Shown here: positions 19,564 to 28,057 of the stretch, piece by piece
Numbering within the stretch: position 1 is the first letter of the stretch
How the letters are laid out: every line of letters starts with the position of its first letter
Virus record (IMG/VR): IMGVR_UViG_3300011113_000460
Coordinates: 1-30,687 of that record
DNA length: 30,687 nt
Origin: a virus
Reading direction: 5' to 3' (one strand)
The notes under the pieces: model-generated
Seen by the model: only the letters and a program-made list of their open reading frames with translations
What the model was told of the DNA's origin: nothing
Databases searched by the model: none
Made by a program: the position numbers and the translations under genes

Positions 19564-21492
19564 ATGACCACCCTTTGGCTCGACCTCGAGACCTACTGCG
19601 AGACGCCAATTACGCACGGCACGTATCGCTACGCCGAGGGCGCCGAGGTGCTGCTGGTCGCCTACGCCTTCGATGACGAGCCTGTTGAGGTGCTCGACCT
19701 GACCGAGGGCGGCTCGCTCGACAACGTCCAGATGCTGATCGACAGCGCCGACCGCGTCGTCATACACAACAGCAATTTCGACCGCACTGTGCTGCGCTGC
19801 AACAACGTACACATCCCCCTGAGCAAGCTGGAAGACACGATGGCGCAGGCGCTGGCGCACAGCCTGCCTGCGTCACTGGGCGCGCTTTGCGATGTTTTGG
19901 ACGTGCCGCAGGATAAAGCTAAAGACAAAGCCGGCAAGAAGCTGATACACCTGTTTACGAAGCCTCGGCCTCGCAACGTCAAGCTACGGAGAGCCACCCG
20001 TGAAACGCACCCCCAAGAGTGGGCCGCCTTCATCGAATACGCCCGACTCGATGTGGACGCGATGCGAGACGTATCTCGACGCCTCCCCGGATGGAATAAT
20101 TCTCGAGGTGAACGTCGAGTTTGGGAACTCGACCAGTACATTAATGACCGTGGTATCGCCGTCGATGTTCGACTCGCCGAAGCTGCACTCCGAGCTTTTC
20201 AAAGAAGCGCGCGACATCTGGCTGAGCGAGCCGGACTTCTGACGAACGGCGCCGTGCCCTCGCTGACGCAGGGCGCGCGCTTCAAGGCGTACCTTGCGGC
20301 CAACGGCTACGACGCCGAGGATCTGACCAAGGGCAGCGTGTCGGCCGCGCTGAAGGGCGAGCTGACTGACCATGTCCGCGAGCTCCTCGAGATACGCCAG
20401 CAGGCCTCGGCCACGTCGCCGGCTAAGTACAAGGTGCTGATCAACGGCACGAGCAGCGACGGCCGCCTGCGTGGCACCCTGCAGTACTGCGGCGCGTCGC
20501 GCACCGGGCGCTGGGGCGGCCGCCTCTTCCAGCCGCAGAACCTGCCCCGGCCGACGCTGAAGCAAGAGCAGATCGACATGGGCATCGCGGCGATGAAGGC
20601 CGACGCCGAAGACCTGCTCTTCAGCAACGTGTCGGAGCTGTGCAGCAGCGCCGTGCGCGGCGCGCTGGTGGCAGAGGACGGCAAGAAACTGGTCATCGCC
20701 GACCTATCAAATATCGAAGGGCGCGTGCTGGCATGGCTCGCGAACGAGAAGTGGAAGATCGACGCGTTTGCCGACTTCGACAAGGGCATCGGCCACGACC
20801 CGTACAAGCTGGCCTACGCAAGGGCGTTTAACCTGCCTGTAGAGAAAATATCTAAGGATGACAGGCAGTTAGGCAAAGTGATGGAGCTGGCGCTGGGTTA
20901 CCAAGGCGGTCTGGGCGCGTTCAACACGATGGCGTCGGCGTACGGCGTCAGCCTGCCCGACGAGCGCGTGCAGGAGCTCGTGACGGCGTGGCGCAAGGCG
21001 CACCCGGCGGTCAGGTCGTTCTGGTACGCGCTCGAGGGTGCCTGCAACGGCGCGCTTCTGGACGAGGGCAAGATCCACAAGGTGGGTCTGCTGAGCGCCA
21101 TCTTTAAGGACACGTGGCTGCGCATCAAGCTGCCCGGCGGCCGGTGGCTCTGCTATCCGAACGCCGCTATGGAGAGCGGCCGCATCGTCTATGACGGTAC
21201 GAACCAGTTCACTAAGAAGTGGGAGCGCATCGAGACGTACGGCGGCAAGATCTGCGAGAATATCGTGCAGGCCGTGGCGCGCGACGTGCTGGCCTCCGGG
21301 CTGCTGCGCGCCGAGACGGCCGGCTACCGCGTCTGCCTGCACGTACACGACGAGATCATCGCCGAGGTGCCGGACACTGACGAGTACAGCGCCGATGGCC
21401 TGTCGGCTATTATGTCGCACAATCCGGGCTGGACGCTGGGCCTGCCGCTCGCTGCGGCCGGCTTCGAAACGTACCGGTACAGGAAGGACTGA
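19564..21492 (+). CDS. Family A DNA polymerase with 3'-5' exonuclease
   Basis: 642 aa from ATG 19564 with only a weak GGAAA upstream; a TTG 4 codons earlier has no better site. It replicates the phage genome. Exonuclease motif LDLE (Asp7, Glu9) at the very N-terminus; polymerase motif A IADLSNIEGR (Asp380, Glu385); motif B RQLGKVMELALGYQGG (Arg434, Lys438, Tyr446); motif C HVHDEI (Asp596, Glu597). YG of motif B is YQG, as I recall for this phage subgroup. Third codon positions fall from nearly all G/C to about half between ~20000 and 20241, where a second reading frame is open. The polymerase frame itself stays conserved there (INDRGIAVDVRLAEAAL). Confidence 0.95.
   Translation: MTTLWLDLETYCETPITHGTYRYAEGAEVLLVAYAFDDEPVEVLDLTEGGSLDNVQMLIDSADRVVIHNSNFDRTVLRCNNVHIPLSKLEDTMAQALAHSLPASLGALCDVLDVPQDKAKDKAGKKLIHLFTKPRPRNVKLRRATRETHPQEWAAFIEYARLDVDAMRDVSRRLPGWNNSRGERRVWELDQYINDRGIAVDVRLAEAALRAFQRSARHLAERAGLLTNGAVPSLTQGARFKAYLAANGYDAEDLTKGSVSAALKGELTDHVRELLEIRQQASATSPAKYKVLINGTSSDGRLRGTLQYCGASRTGRWGGRLFQPQNLPRPTLKQEQIDMGIAAMKADAEDLLFSNVSELCSSAVRGALVAEDGKKLVIADLSNIEGRVLAWLANEKWKIDAFADFDKGIGHDPYKLAYARAFNLPVEKISKDDRQLGKVMELALGYQGGLGAFNTMASAYGVSLPDERVQELVTAWRKAHPAVRSFWYALEGACNGALLDEGKIHKVGLLSAIFKDTWLRIKLPGGRWLCYPNAAMESGRIVYDGTNQFTKKWERIETYGGKICENIVQAVARDVLASGLLRAETAGYRVCLHVHDEIIAEVPDTDEYSADGLSAIMSHNPGWTLGLPLAAAGFETYRYRKD
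20000..20242 (+). CDS. Possible overprinted 80-aa gene inside the DNA polymerase gene
   Basis: GTG at 20000 with GGAGAG 6 nt upstream, TGA at 20240, in a different frame from the polymerase (alternate position 2 is polymerase position 3). Starts MKRTPKSGPPSSNTPDSMWT and ends EARDIWLSEPDF. Over these 80 codons the polymerase frame has G/C in 39 of 80 third positions, while the next 40 polymerase codons have 38 of 40. All nine CGA arginine codons of the polymerase in this region read GAC or GAG (Asp/Glu) in the second frame; the usual CGC would give Ala. The shift ends at the second frame's stop. Against it: GC3 is already lowered (25 of 40) in the 40 codons before the start, so a recombined segment is an alternative. 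No homologue recognised. Confidence 0.45.
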   Translation: MKRTPKSGPPSSNTPDSMWTRCETYLDASPDGIILEVNVEFGNSTSTLMTVVSPSMFDSPKLHSELFKEARDIWLSEPDF

Positions 21493-23590: not shown

Positions 23591-23748
23591 TGAGGAAGGT
23601 AGATCTCGAGGCGTGTCCTCACGACATGCCGTGGACTATGCCTTGCGGCTTTTGCGAGGACGAGGGGATTGACGTACCGCAAAAGGTGCTTGACGACGCC
23701 GAACGGCAAGACCGCCTTGAGCGTAAGGTTCCTCGCCGTACTTCCTAA
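23590..23748 (+). CDS. 52-aa putative zinc-binding protein
   Basis: ATG at 23590 overlapping the previous stop (TGATG). Cys9, His11, Cys19 and Cys22 (ACPHDMPWTMPCGFC) could bind one zinc. Charged C-terminal half (QKVLDDAERQDRLERKV). It overlaps the last 113 bp of the convergent structural gene in antisense, with no terminator between. Coding status is supported by coupled start and cysteine pattern only. Confidence 0.6.
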   Translation: MRKVDLEACPHDMPWTMPCGFCEDEGIDVPQKVLDDAERQDRLERKVPRRTS

Positions 23749-25372
23749 TGTCCTCGATGTATTTCGACATGTTGTCCACCCACTCTTGGTCGAATTGTTG
23801 GATGCGGGGATCCGACCCGAATGCCTCTTTGGCTTCTACTGGAGTGCGTTGAAACAAATACGCTTGTATTTGCGTAGGGGTGTAGCCCTTATCGGCAAGT
23901 TTTTGCATAGCGTTGTAGTAGCTGGAGAACATCAATTCGCGCGGTACGCCAAACTCCGTGCGCCCTTCGTAAAACCCGGATAGTGTTGCCGGGTAGTTAG
24001 GGTGCACAACGGGGACTGAGTTACGCCCGCTTGGCGTACCGGAAGGGGTGAGGCCCATTATGGCGCGGCCTGACGTACCTTCGGGGGCATACAGCAATTC
24101 TGGCACAGACAGAGCGACACGGTTTGAGCCGATGTCGGGGAAGCCTTTTTCGAGCGCCGATGCTTGGTCGAGCAATTTCTGAATGGCAGTACGCTGCGGC
24201 ATCCTAACTTTCGAAATGTCGTTCAGTTGCGCTGCGGCGGCCATCGGGTCTTTTGCAAACCCGATGAAATTTTCAGCCGCGTCTCCCCCGAGGATACCTT
24301 TGACAGCCGTGTCAAAATCCAAAAGATCAGCCTCGCGGACACCGCCAGCGGCCAACTGCCTGCCGAGCAAATCCATCATCGAGGTAGACTGATCGAGGCC
24401 AGTAGCCCCCATCGTGGTGTAGATGCCAGCCACCGGCTTCCCGTACAGGTCTTCGCCGCTCTTTCGCATGGTTTCGAGTCCGCCGATAACGGCCGGAGAG
24501 CTCTTCCACGCCTCCAACCCGCCGAGGGCTTCGGCGATACGCGAATAGCCGGGGCCGCCCATCGACAAAGTCTCACCCACTTGGGCGCGATCATTAACAC
24601 GTCGTAAAGCGGTGCCGGCAATTAGCTTGTCACCGATGAGAGGTATGCCGGAACCATACCTCTTGGCTATCTCCTCGGGCGATATTACGACCTCTGGGCG
24701 CATGTTCACAACATTGCGAACATCAGCGGTCACCCGATTGGCGGGGACGCTGCCCGACAAACCTGAGTACCCTTTGCTGCTTTGCGCCATAAACGGGCGA
24801 CGGCCGACGATGGGTACGCGGTTGGCGATAGCGAACGACCCACCCAACCCCGCGCCTTGCGGAAACTGCACGTCGGCTAATTCTGGGTGCGGTGTGGCAA
24901 CGGGTTCGACGGCTTGGTATTTAGGCGGGCGGGGGGCCTTAGCCGCCTTCTCCGGCGCAGCCTTCGCGACTTTCGCTGCGCCCTTCGTGGCCTTCGCCAC
25001 TTTCTTCGCAGCCTTACCCGCACCGGGCAGCGGCAGCGCGGCGAGCGCCACGTTGGCCGCCGCCTCACCACGCTTGCCCTCGCGAGCGGCGAGGGCGGCC
25101 TCGTTGCCCACGAACGCGCCTCCCAGCGGCGTGAAGTCGGCCAGCGTTAGCATTTGCTCGGCGTTCCTGCGCCCGAAGCGCACCGCCAGTTTGTCCTTGA
25201 GCTGATCGCGCCACGATGGTTCGCGCGCCTCAAGGCGGTCACGACCGACGATGTCCGTCGGATCGAGCAGATCGGCGACATCCGCGCTGGGCGCGCTGTA
25301 GTCCACACTGAGCTTGCCCCCGCGCTGCAGGCGCTGCGGCGTCACGGCAAAGGGGAAGTCGGTGGAGCGCAT
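23636..25372 (-). CDS. Virion-associated protein, distal structural operon (578 aa)
   Basis: ATG at 25372, 3 nt after the upstream stop. Residues ~1-160 are helical and Ala/Lys-rich (LPLPGAGKAAKKVAKATKGA...). From ~165 on, a globular domain contains QSSKGYSGLSGSVPANRVTA, SMGGPGYSRIAEALGGLEAW and GIYTTMGATGLDQSTSMMD; I do not recognise a named fold. The C-terminus has YAQGGLAVRRRQ, like the QGG ends of its neighbours. The DNA of the C-terminal two thirds is much less GC-rich: 27 of 60 at 23881-23940 and 34 of 60 at 24181-24240, against 47 of 60 at 25021-25080. That suggests an exchanged distal domain. As the last late gene it may be an internal or tail-associated protein. Confidence 0.75.
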   Translation of the reverse strand: MRSTDFPFAVTPQRLQRGGKLSVDYSAPSADVADLLDPTDIVGRDRLEAREPSWRDQLKDKLAVRFGRRNAEQMLTLADFTPLGGAFVGNEAALAAREGKRGEAAANVALAALPLPGAGKAAKKVAKATKGAAKVAKAAPEKAAKAPRPPKYQAVEPVATPHPELADVQFPQGAGLGGSFAIANRVPIVGRRPFMAQSSKGYSGLSGSVPANRVTADVRNVVNMRPEVVISPEEIAKRYGSGIPLIGDKLIAGTALRRVNDRAQVGETLSMGGPGYSRIAEALGGLEAWKSSPAVIGGLETMRKSGEDLYGKPVAGIYTTMGATGLDQSTSMMDLLGRQLAAGGVREADLLDFDTAVKGILGGDAAENFIGFAKDPMAAAAQLNDISKVRMPQRTAIQKLLDQASALEKGFPDIGSNRVALSVPELLYAPEGTSGRAIMGLTPSGTPSGRNSVPVVHPNYPATLSGFYEGRTEFGVPRELMFSSYYNAMQKLADKGYTPTQIQAYLFQRTPVEAKEAFGSDPRIQQFDQEWVDNMSKYIEDIRKYGEEPYAQGGLAVRRRQAPFAVRQSPRPRKSRKA

Positions 25373-25375
25373 CTG

Positions 25376-28057
25376 TTAGAACGCCCTCGGCGCAAAAACA
25401 CGGCCGCCCTGCGCGAACGCCGCGGGCTCTTTGTCCTTCTCGTCGTATGCAGCCATCAGCTCTTCAAGGCTGGGCGCGGCAGCGCGTGCCGCCGGAGGGA
25501 GCGTGCGGTACGTGCGGATGAGCCGCTCCATCTCGGGATCGTTGGACTGCGGGATGTACTCAAGCTCGCTGACCTGCGGCTGGATCAGCGGCGGGTTGGC
25601 GACACGCACAGCGCGAGCGGTGGGCTCGGCGTACTTGTCGAACAGCTGCGCAGCCGCATCACGCAGATTAACTGCGCCCGGCACACGCTGGAAAGCGCGC
25701 TCAGCGCGGCCCAGCAACGAGCCTGCGCCGTAAGCCGCTTCACCCAGACGGCGAGGTGTCGCGAGGGTGGCGGCCAACGGCTCAGGGCTACCGGCAGCCA
25801 TCGCCGCAGCGCCGCTCAGGGACGGCGTCAGACCGGCCGGCTCGCGGCCGGACATCGCCTGACCTGCAAGAATGTCCCCCAGACCGCGGCCCGCCTTCGT
25901 GCTCTCGAGCAACTCCAGCACGGTGCGGCCGCGCGGGCCTTTGCCCTGCGCAGTGCGGCGCAGCTTGTTGAGGGCTGTGTCGGCGCTCTTGGCACCAAGC
26001 GAGAGGCTGCTCTGCACGTCAGACAGCGTATCGCTGGCGATACGGTAGTCCTTCATCACATCGGCGTAGATAGGTGCCTTCGCCGTGATAACGCGATTGA
26101 TTGAGTTGGCCACCTCTTGCGCGACTTTGTACTGCGGCGTGCCTCTCTGGTAGTTGTCGCGGATGTTGCCAACGGCGCGTTTCATCGCGTCGAAATCCTC
26201 AATCGTGGTGAGGCCCTTCTTGGAGAACTCGCCGACCTTTGCGTCAACCGCATCCCAGACATCTGCTGCAGACGAGATGTCGATGCCCTTGTGGCGACCG
26301 ATGTTGCGCACGTCGTCAATAGCCGTCTGTACGTCGGCAAATTTAAGTTCCTCGGGGTTCCGCTTGAGGCGATCCATGCGGCGCGTGTAGTCGGCGCTGC
26401 GCTGCTGATACAGTTCAGTGATTGCCGCCTGCGCTTTGCCGAGGGGATCGACGGCAGCGCCTTCGCCGCGCATCTGCGCAAGGAACTCAGGAGATCCGCG
26501 GCGGCCGGCAGCAAAGGTCTGCTCGACGTCGCCCACAGTAACACCAGCGGCGCGCGCCGGGGCGCCGACGCCGATGCCTTTGGCCACTGCGCCTGCGCCC
26601 TTCGCGCCGACCTTGGCGAGTTTGGCGCTTGCCACAAGTGGATCGAGGATGGCGGCTGTCTTGCCAAAGCCCTCGACGGCCTGCGCAGCCTTGGCGAGGC
26701 GCGGCAGGCTGCCGATCTTTGCCGCAAGGTTAGCGCCCCCGGCCACGGTGCCCGCGCCAAGCGTGGCCACGCCGGCGACGTCAGCGAGGATCGACGCCGG
26801 ATCTTGAGCGAGCGCCTTGTAGAAGCCCTGCTCGCTGCCGTAGCGGTTCTTGTAGTAGTCGGTGAGCGCCGTGACGGCGCTGTCGTCCTCGGACAGGCCG
26901 GTCGCGCCGGCCACGAGGTTGGCGATGCCTTCGAGCGTGTCGGGCAGATCGACGGTCAGCGCCTTGACCGTATTGGCCGCAAGATTGAGCGTGCTCGGGA
27001 TCAGGTTGATCGCGCCTTCACCAAGCGCCTCGCCGAAGGTGAGGCCGTTCGGCTCAGATGTCTTGCCGACGGCGGTGAAGTAGCCGCGAGCCGCCTCGTC
27101 GGCGGGCGTGTAGTCGAAGACCGGGGCGCGTGCGCCCTTCATGCCTGCGATCTCGCGGCCGGTCTTGACGGCGTCGACGACGAACTTCTCGTCGGGCTGG
27201 CGACCGGTGGCGTTGTAGTATGCCGCGGCCATGCGCGCGGCATAATCCGTCGGGTCAAACGAGCCGTCCTTCTTGCTCTGCTCGGCGTAGGCGGCGAGCG
27301 CCTTCTCGTCGTCGGGGCGGAAGCGGTACGCCTTGATGTCCGGCGCGAACTGTTCGATGTTGTCGGTTCCAAGGGCCTCTGCGATGGCCTGTGGGTCCGT
27401 GTTTAGCGCCCCGGCGACAGAGAGACGACCTTTGATAAGATCGTCGACACCTTGCTGGAACACTTTGTCGCTGGCGCGCGGGTCTATCGCGCCTTCTTTG
27501 CTGTACAGCAGTTCGAGTTCGCGCTCGGTAACATTGCCGAGAGCGCCGCCAGTGGGGCTCTCTTCGCGCATCTTTTGGAGGTTGGTGAAGGCGCTGTTGG
27601 CTTGGATAGGCTTCAAGAGCGCCTCTACCGATGCCGCAGAAGAACCCGGAAACTGCGCAGCGGTATCGCGGCCAAAGCCGGTAGCGAAATAGGCCTCGCG
27701 ACTGAGCCTTTTAGCTTCCGCAAGGTTGCGCAGTTCAACCAAAACAGCCTGTTGCGCTTTGGGCAAGTTCGCGAGCGGAGGCAGACCGCCGCTGAGCGCC
27801 TTCACCTTGGCCAGCGCGATCTCGGCCTGATCGGCCTCGCTTACCGCCTTGCGGGCGAACGCCTCTTCTTTCTTCACGGTGCTCGGCAGCGTGGCGCGCT
27901 TCTCGGCGGCAGTCGCACGCGCCGACTCAGCGGATGCTACCGACGACGCGGCGGATGCACCGCTCTGCGAGATGTCCGCAGAAAGTTTGCGCTCTTGGGG
28001 TGTCTCACCACGCGAAGTTGCGAGGTCGGAAGCCCACCAGTCTTGATCACGCGCCAC
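25376..28057 (-). CDS. Large internal virion / DNA-ejection-like protein (893 aa)
   Basis: GTG at 28057 with AGGAGGCCCCC upstream. Long helical N-terminus (ASSVASAESARATAAEKRAT). A central segment (GEGAINLIPSTLNLAANTVK, LPDTLEGIANLVAGATGL, DYYKNRYGSEQGFYKALAQD, PASILADVAGVATLGAGTVA) is a pattern I associate with internal virion proteins of podoviruses, with amphipathic or hydrophobic helices that could enter membranes. Ala-rich helices follow. The C-terminus ends FAQGGRVFAPRAF. Function (ejection channel or core) is inferred from these features and operon position. Confidence 0.75.
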   Translation of the reverse strand: MARDQDWWASDLATSRGETPQERKLSADISQSGASAASSVASAESARATAAEKRATLPSTVKKEEAFARKAVSEADQAEIALAKVKALSGGLPPLANLPKAQQAVLVELRNLAEAKRLSREAYFATGFGRDTAAQFPGSSAASVEALLKPIQANSAFTNLQKMREESPTGGALGNVTERELELLYSKEGAIDPRASDKVFQQGVDDLIKGRLSVAGALNTDPQAIAEALGTDNIEQFAPDIKAYRFRPDDEKALAAYAEQSKKDGSFDPTDYAARMAAAYYNATGRQPDEKFVVDAVKTGREIAGMKGARAPVFDYTPADEAARGYFTAVGKTSEPNGLTFGEALGEGAINLIPSTLNLAANTVKALTVDLPDTLEGIANLVAGATGLSEDDSAVTALTDYYKNRYGSEQGFYKALAQDPASILADVAGVATLGAGTVAGGANLAAKIGSLPRLAKAAQAVEGFGKTAAILDPLVASAKLAKVGAKGAGAVAKGIGVGAPARAAGVTVGDVEQTFAAGRRGSPEFLAQMRGEGAAVDPLGKAQAAITELYQQRSADYTRRMDRLKRNPEELKFADVQTAIDDVRNIGRHKGIDISSAADVWDAVDAKVGEFSKKGLTTIEDFDAMKRAVGNIRDNYQRGTPQYKVAQEVANSINRVITAKAPIYADVMKDYRIASDTLSDVQSSLSLGAKSADTALNKLRRTAQGKGPRGRTVLELLESTKAGRGLGDILAGQAMSGREPAGLTPSLSGAAAMAAGSPEPLAATLATPRRLGEAAYGAGSLLGRAERAFQRVPGAVNLRDAAAQLFDKYAEPTARAVRVANPPLIQPQVSELEYIPQSNDPEMERLIRTYRTLPPAARAAAPSLEELMAAYDEKDKEPAAFAQGGRVFAPRAF

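Follow-up and report, generated by a model that had tools for sequence, protein, structure and literature searches.

The DNA polymerase gene of the window (the whole stretch of DNA analysed, a virus record of 30,687 bases) almost certainly contains a second, overprinted protein-coding gene, a confidence that concerns coding status and not function. This gene, ORF2, overlies polymerase residues 146–226 in the +1 frame, and the comparison of related sequences indicates that, by the features tested, it is a nested out-of-frame gene with its own protein family. The polymerase belongs to a tailed-phage replication module on the + strand (primase/helicase, exonuclease, Gp2.5-like SSB, family-A DNA polymerase and helicase), and packaging and tail genes occupy the − strand. 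It matches the Pfam families DNA_pol_A (2.2e-15) and DNA_pol_A_exo1 (5.9e-5) and PHROG 17 (2.3e-119), and is 62% identical to the polymerase of Caulobacter phage RW and 54% identical to that of Bordetella phage BPP-1. The mechanical open reading frame of the polymerase starts at TTG 19552. According to the Pfam domain bounds, the overlap spans the end of the exonuclease domain and runs into the linker towards the polymerase domain. It includes a Y-A-R-L-D segment that we take, from general knowledge of DEDD exonucleases, to be the Exo III motif.

Table 1. Positions in the window of the polymerase gene, ORF2 and their parts
Feature	Position	Strand	Details
Family-A DNA polymerase with 3'-5' exonuclease domain	19564..21492	+	642 aa from ATG 19564
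Shine-Dalgarno GGAGAG of ORF2	19988..19993	+	from polymerase codons CGG AGA GCC
ORF2, putative overprinted gene, +1 frame of the polymerase	20000..20242	+	GTG start, 80 codons, TGA stop
ORF2 codon 6 (AAG in the window)	20015..20017	+	alternative ATG start in 23/43 representatives
Presumed polymerase Exo III motif, Y-A-R-L-D	20038..20052	+	ORF2 residues 14–18; sequence, Pfam domain bounds
Predicted beta hairpin, ORF2 residues 33–52	20096..20155	+	AlphaFold2, pLDDT about 75–77 locally
Predicted C-terminal helix, ORF2 residues 60–75	20177..20224	+	invariant L66, E69, W74

An earlier, sequence-only reading of this DNA had drawn attention to the codon usage of the overlap, and a recount gave the same figures throughout. 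The fraction of codons with G or C in the third position (GC3) is 26/40 in the 40 codons upstream of 19999, 39/80 in the 80 polymerase codons from 20002 and 38/40 in the 40 codons past 20242; in the rest of the gene it is 486/565. Measured over 80 codons, GC3 reaches its minimum within the polymerase gene at the overlap (38/80 at 19999). The gene has nine CGA codons, and every one of them falls in the overlap, where the second frame reads four as GAC (Asp) and five as GAG (Glu). Since the overlap holds 14 of the 47 polymerase Arg codons, the hypergeometric probability of finding all nine CGA codons there is 1.5e-6. The CGA clue generalises to the clade described below, where CGA accounts for 197 of 494 Arg codons within the overlap and for 60 of 1716 outside it. 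The GGAGAG Shine-Dalgarno (SD) sequence and the GTG start that the earlier reading had pointed out are both present, separated by a 6-nt spacer. The TGA stop (20240–20242) follows from a conserved Leu-Thr pair of the polymerase (CTG-ACN) and so adds no independent evidence; in some members it is lost and ORF2 extends 4–8 codons further.

An open frame of such length is unsurprising at this GC content. Synonymous reshuffling of the overlap leaves the +1 frame open in 23–44% of trials, and the same frame is open by chance in some polymerases that have no ORF2. Relatives therefore had to decide. IMG/VR was scanned for them with two queries, the polymerase and an aligned set of second-frame proteins, and a few isolate records were added. 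The resulting 116 distinct polymerase sequences comprise 94 with a recognisable second frame and 22 without, and 43 representatives of the 94 share less than 90% nucleotide identity. Stops in the second frame of close relatives, which the earlier reading had suggested looking for, were not found: the frame is open in all 94 distinct sequences and in all 43 representatives, whereas the other sense frame is open in 0/43 (about six stops per member).

In a polymerase tree built without residues 120–240 from the 43 representatives and 19 negatives, the ORF2-positive polymerases form one clade separated by a single change (SH-aLRT 81, not above 95). This pattern does not stem from selecting sequences by their second frame, since polymerase-based scans alone recovered 52 distinct loci, 35 of them ORF2-positive and 17 negative, and the tree needs one change. 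Overprinting thus appears to have arisen once, at the root of a single clade of polymerases from tailed phages. ORF2 is absent from the outgroup polymerases, which on this tree makes the host gene the older of the two and ORF2 the derived state, and it has been lost in none of the 43 diverse lineages sampled. The carriers are uncultivated bacterial viruses, and the negatives include the cultured phages RW and BPP-1; a search for the ORF2 protein in the cultured phages and plasmids of the collections found none. In a profile search of 44 whole records, each positive has one copy, located in the polymerase gene, that scores 112–141 bits and has no stops, whereas negatives score 15–35 bits or nothing and mostly carry stops. 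These low scores are a shadow of polymerase homology, as is a match in Acinetobacter phage 4316 (E 0.05), in which the frame closes 38 codons past the aligned start.

Substitution patterns indicate that ORF2 is under strong purifying selection while the polymerase protein is also kept. The sequence-only reading had named synonymous rates equal to those of the flanks as evidence against a second gene. In independent pairs that are 93–99.5% identical, differences at third positions number 0.030 per codon within the overlap, compared with 0.103 upstream and 0.070 downstream. Third-position changes in the polymerase are thus 2.3–3.4-fold rarer in the overlap than in the flanks of close pairs, and the third-position share of all differences falls from 57–74% to 45%. 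ORF2-negative polymerases show no such reduction (0.413 versus 0.411 and 0.398 in the flanks). Together with the clade-wide open frame, this reduced synonymous change supports the selection for a second protein that the earlier reading had proposed.

For divergent pairs (under 74% identity), synonymous codons were permuted within each sequence so that the polymerase protein and the local codon usage were kept. The excess similarity of the second frame over these shuffles is 1.98 BLOSUM units per site in ORF2, 0.1–0.6 in non-overlapping windows of the gene and 0.11 in ORF2-negative polymerases. The ORF2 frame contains on average 0.02 stops versus 1.32 in shuffles; the representatives are related, so P values from the shuffles are inexact. 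A simple codon-mismatch scan gave a modest deficit (0.81 versus 1.03), a weak signal because strong codon bias keeps the flanks alike, and was superseded by the shuffle and position-specific tests. A low-mismatch region that it picked out near 21100–21300 was rejected as an overlapping gene, as its +1 frame is interrupted by stops and shows no similarity beyond that of the shuffles.

Individual polymerase codons show what is conserved. Ala211 is GCT in 42/42 cases within the clade and in 0/16 negatives, and yields ORF2 L66; Val170 is GTA in 30/30 versus 1/14 and yields Y25; Arg214 is CGA or AGA in 42/42 versus 0/12, and both codons yield E69. Further choices fixed or nearly fixed in the clade are Arg196 as CGT (41/41 versus 4/17 negatives), Ala160 as GCC (43/43 versus 9/17) and Arg168 as CGA (37/43 versus 0/17). 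Polymerase-silent changes between close relatives are conservative in ORF2 (−0.81 versus −1.57 expected, p=0.0003). The same test in the flanks gives a much smaller deviation (−1.17 versus −1.30) and 86 stop changes. Among 253 polymerase-silent changes in pairs that are 80–93% identical, none creates or removes an ORF2 stop, with 11.7 expected.

These site-by-site patterns bear on the alternative raised by the sequence-only reading itself, namely that the segment was acquired by recombination from a low-GC or differently biased phage and its open frame is accidental. Such an event would produce a local fall in GC3 like the one observed, including the reduction that begins 40 codons upstream, and identity to relatives does differ from one segment to another (for L013, 75% in the overlap and ~60% in parts elsewhere). 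However, the dip is inherited by the whole clade, lying at the same place in all its members, with GC3 of 41–65% in the overlap and mostly 73–95% in the flanks, and the first and second codon positions of the polymerase show no lack of G and C in this stretch. The codons track the second protein site by site in 43 lineages, beyond mere composition, polymerase-silent changes avoid second-frame stops and radical replacements, and matched starts and SD sites are not something that recombination predicts. We therefore consider this alternative very improbable. Segment-wise amino-acid identity, tried as a test of recombination, showed shifting nearest relatives and no clean mosaic.

Conserved codon choice in the overlap could also be caused by a nucleic-acid element, such as RNA structure, a replication origin or another DNA or RNA signal. 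The region has a weak consensus fold, at −12.5 kcal/mol for 291 nt; its covariation term is close to zero, and double changes of any kind occur in just 2 of its 30 pairs. Furthermore, codons change while the second-frame residue stays, as with the CGA and AGA codons behind Glu69, stops are avoided, and the start codon and the SD sequence shift together, so that constraint by such a signal has very little probability. An antisense gene over the polymerase is harder still to credit as the source of the constraint, for although long antisense open reading frames cover the stretch in the window, the three antisense frames are stop-free in only 12, 16 and 0 of the 43 representatives.

The starts of the overprinted gene fall into two modules. 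Nineteen representatives begin at codon 1 with GTG (ATG in L103) behind AGGAGG, AGGAGA or CGGAG, an SD sequence formed by the codons for polymerase Leu-Arg-Arg. All 19 carry GGAG, AGGA or GAGG at this site (SD1), and none has an ATG at codon 6 or the corresponding SD6; SD1 is absent from every ORF2-negative polymerase tested. Another 23 representatives lack a start at codon 1 and have an ATG at codon 6 with a GGGAGA-like site. In 19 of the 23, SD6 is of the GGAG type, the other four have weaker GGGA or GAGAG sites, and two retain the upstream SD as well. Altogether, a start codon is found in 42 of the 43 representatives, and a start with its matching SD in 38. Five start switches are needed on the tree, and with so few independent switches a sign test of the coupling between start and SD falls short of significance, although the coupling is exceptionless for SD1 among codon-1 starters. 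The sole representative without either start (L176 1413–1652) has GGG at codon 1 and ACG at codon 6 of an open frame; it may start at this ACG or at an ATG further on, or be decaying at an early stage. In L147 (3440–3679), the start region is of the codon-6 type and the C-terminal part is nearly identical to that of the codon-1-type L137–L140, apparently because the gene recently recombined internally or switched its start.

The ORF2 protein is 75–88 residues long and, in the tabulated members, acidic (net charge −2 to −11). Its invariant residues include G8, P15, G42, L48 and T50, as well as W19, C22, Y25, G32, L66, E69 and W74. Some of the invariants are forced by conserved polymerase residues, but Y25, L66 and E69 need a particular synonymous choice. 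The last seven residues of the list speak against the view that ORF2 is translated but its peptide is irrelevant, internal initiation and termination serving to regulate polymerase translation. The well-conserved SD sites and starts would suit such regulation, yet it needs neither conservation across the whole frame nor conservative replacement, and both are observed; we regard it as highly unlikely.

AlphaFold2 models of the protein comprise a disordered N-terminus, an antiparallel hairpin and a C-terminal helix, with moderate confidence (overall pLDDT 66 and 68). A second structure model agrees and adds a strand, which results in a three-stranded sheet. ORF2 has no family match in Pfam, PHROG, NCBIfam, PADLOC or the PDB, and a fold search of the PDB and BFVD with these models, whose pLDDT is only 66–68, returned nothing at E<=0.001. 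PHROG 32137 (22 members, best E 0.003) was considered as a relative and rejected, as it has no match in the DNA of the genomes. Inspection of the alignments by eye revealed no obvious membrane segment or hydrophobic N-terminus and no lipobox; W-T-R/Q precede the invariant Cys22. A spanin-like role (embedded o-spanin) is not supported, given the lack of a lipobox or signal peptide and the location in a DNA polymerase gene close to exonuclease, SSB and helicase genes.

The sequence comparison shows that the +1 frame over polymerase residues 146–226 turned into a gene in the ancestor of the clade and has constrained the choice of polymerase codons ever since. Judging from its anatomy, ribosomes would bind an internal SD sequence on the polymerase mRNA and initiate at codon 1 (GTG or ATG) where this sequence resembles AGGAGG, and at codon 6 (ATG) where it resembles GGGAGA. 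The product would be a soluble acidic protein with a predicted core of beta-sheet and C-terminal helix. Location and size suggest an accessory function during replication as the likeliest role, since ORF2 resides among replication genes and would be expressed together with the polymerase. An action on a host target, in takeover or counter-defence, has in our estimate a little under an even chance and is slightly likelier than an action on the polymerase or replisome of the phage itself, as a partner or a regulator, which is possible but doubtful. The fuller scenario, in which a de novo protein that is fixed and defines the clade acts on the polymerase encoded by its host gene or on host replication or defence, its start having been relocated repeatedly, is put forward tentatively.

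In tailed dsDNA phages, most known cases of a gene lying wholly within another in a different frame involve lysis genes. The arrangement itself is established, with examples in lambda (Rz1 in Rz, PMC6139136), E. coli (nog1, PMC4683798) and small viruses (PMC8227390). Like ORF2, the o-spanin gene Rz1 is fully nested in the +1 frame of another gene, that of the i-spanin Rz, and has an internal start in a tailed phage, and genes of its type are often missed by gene callers (PMC6139136). Unlike Rz1, which encodes a Pro-rich lipoprotein, ORF2 lies in a replication enzyme and not in a lysis gene, has no evident signal peptide or lipobox, and has a predicted fold of beta sheet and helix. The nog1 gene in citC of E. 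coli O157:H7 resembles ORF2 as a de novo overprinting confined to one clade with outgroups that lack it, but it is antisense, recent, weakly expressed, predicted to be a membrane protein and backed by experimental evidence (PMC4683798), whereas ORF2 is on the same strand, is recognised from sequence alone and is conserved across polymerases about 56–73% identical to that of the window. In small viruses such as hepatitis B virus, overlaps similarly combine a second-frame protein with depressed synonymous change in the shared stretch (PMC8227390). Those genomes are compact and not homologous to the tailed dsDNA phages that carry ORF2, whose contigs reach about 40–60 kb and in which genome compression is a weaker motive. 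Phages RW and BPP-1 have homologous polymerases and comparable replication modules, but across the homologous stretch they show second-frame stops, no GTG, no SD and a GC3 of 82–87%.

In the open-licence literature, we found neither ORF2 nor any other gene that lies out of frame within the DNA polymerase gene of a tailed phage. A protein family without known homologues, situated in a core replication enzyme and combining an apparent single origin with conservation in many lineages and repeated relocation of the start, would be an exceptionally clear example of overprinting giving rise to a new protein in a large DNA virus. It allows one to ask how a new protein arises, gains a ribosome-binding site and becomes fixed while the host gene stays functional. 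Phage annotation misses such genes, ORF2 being in none of the databases searched.

Several observations lie outside the overlap. The mild GC3 drop over the ~40 upstream codons (19879–19998) is common to the clade, lacks site-specific codon conservation and is not explained by ORF2 itself; perhaps it reflects reduced mRNA structure around the internal start. On the − strand of the window, two large open reading frames at 23636–28057 also contain low-GC3 stretches (down to 40/80) and have almost no PHROG match; they probably encode tail or fibre proteins. A scan of the genome collection for the polymerase gave one distant match (L027) and identified no host. The nearest relative of the window's polymerase, 95% identical (L018 3–1016), is on a contig that starts at residue 305, which places the overlap outside its coverage. 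The polymerases of the ORF2-positive L017 (4001–6880) and of phage RW (L028 3001–5880) are 960 residues long each, the extra length being an in-frame insertion of roughly 315 residues in the C-terminal half. This insertion, possibly an intein, falls in no Pfam or NCBIfam domain.
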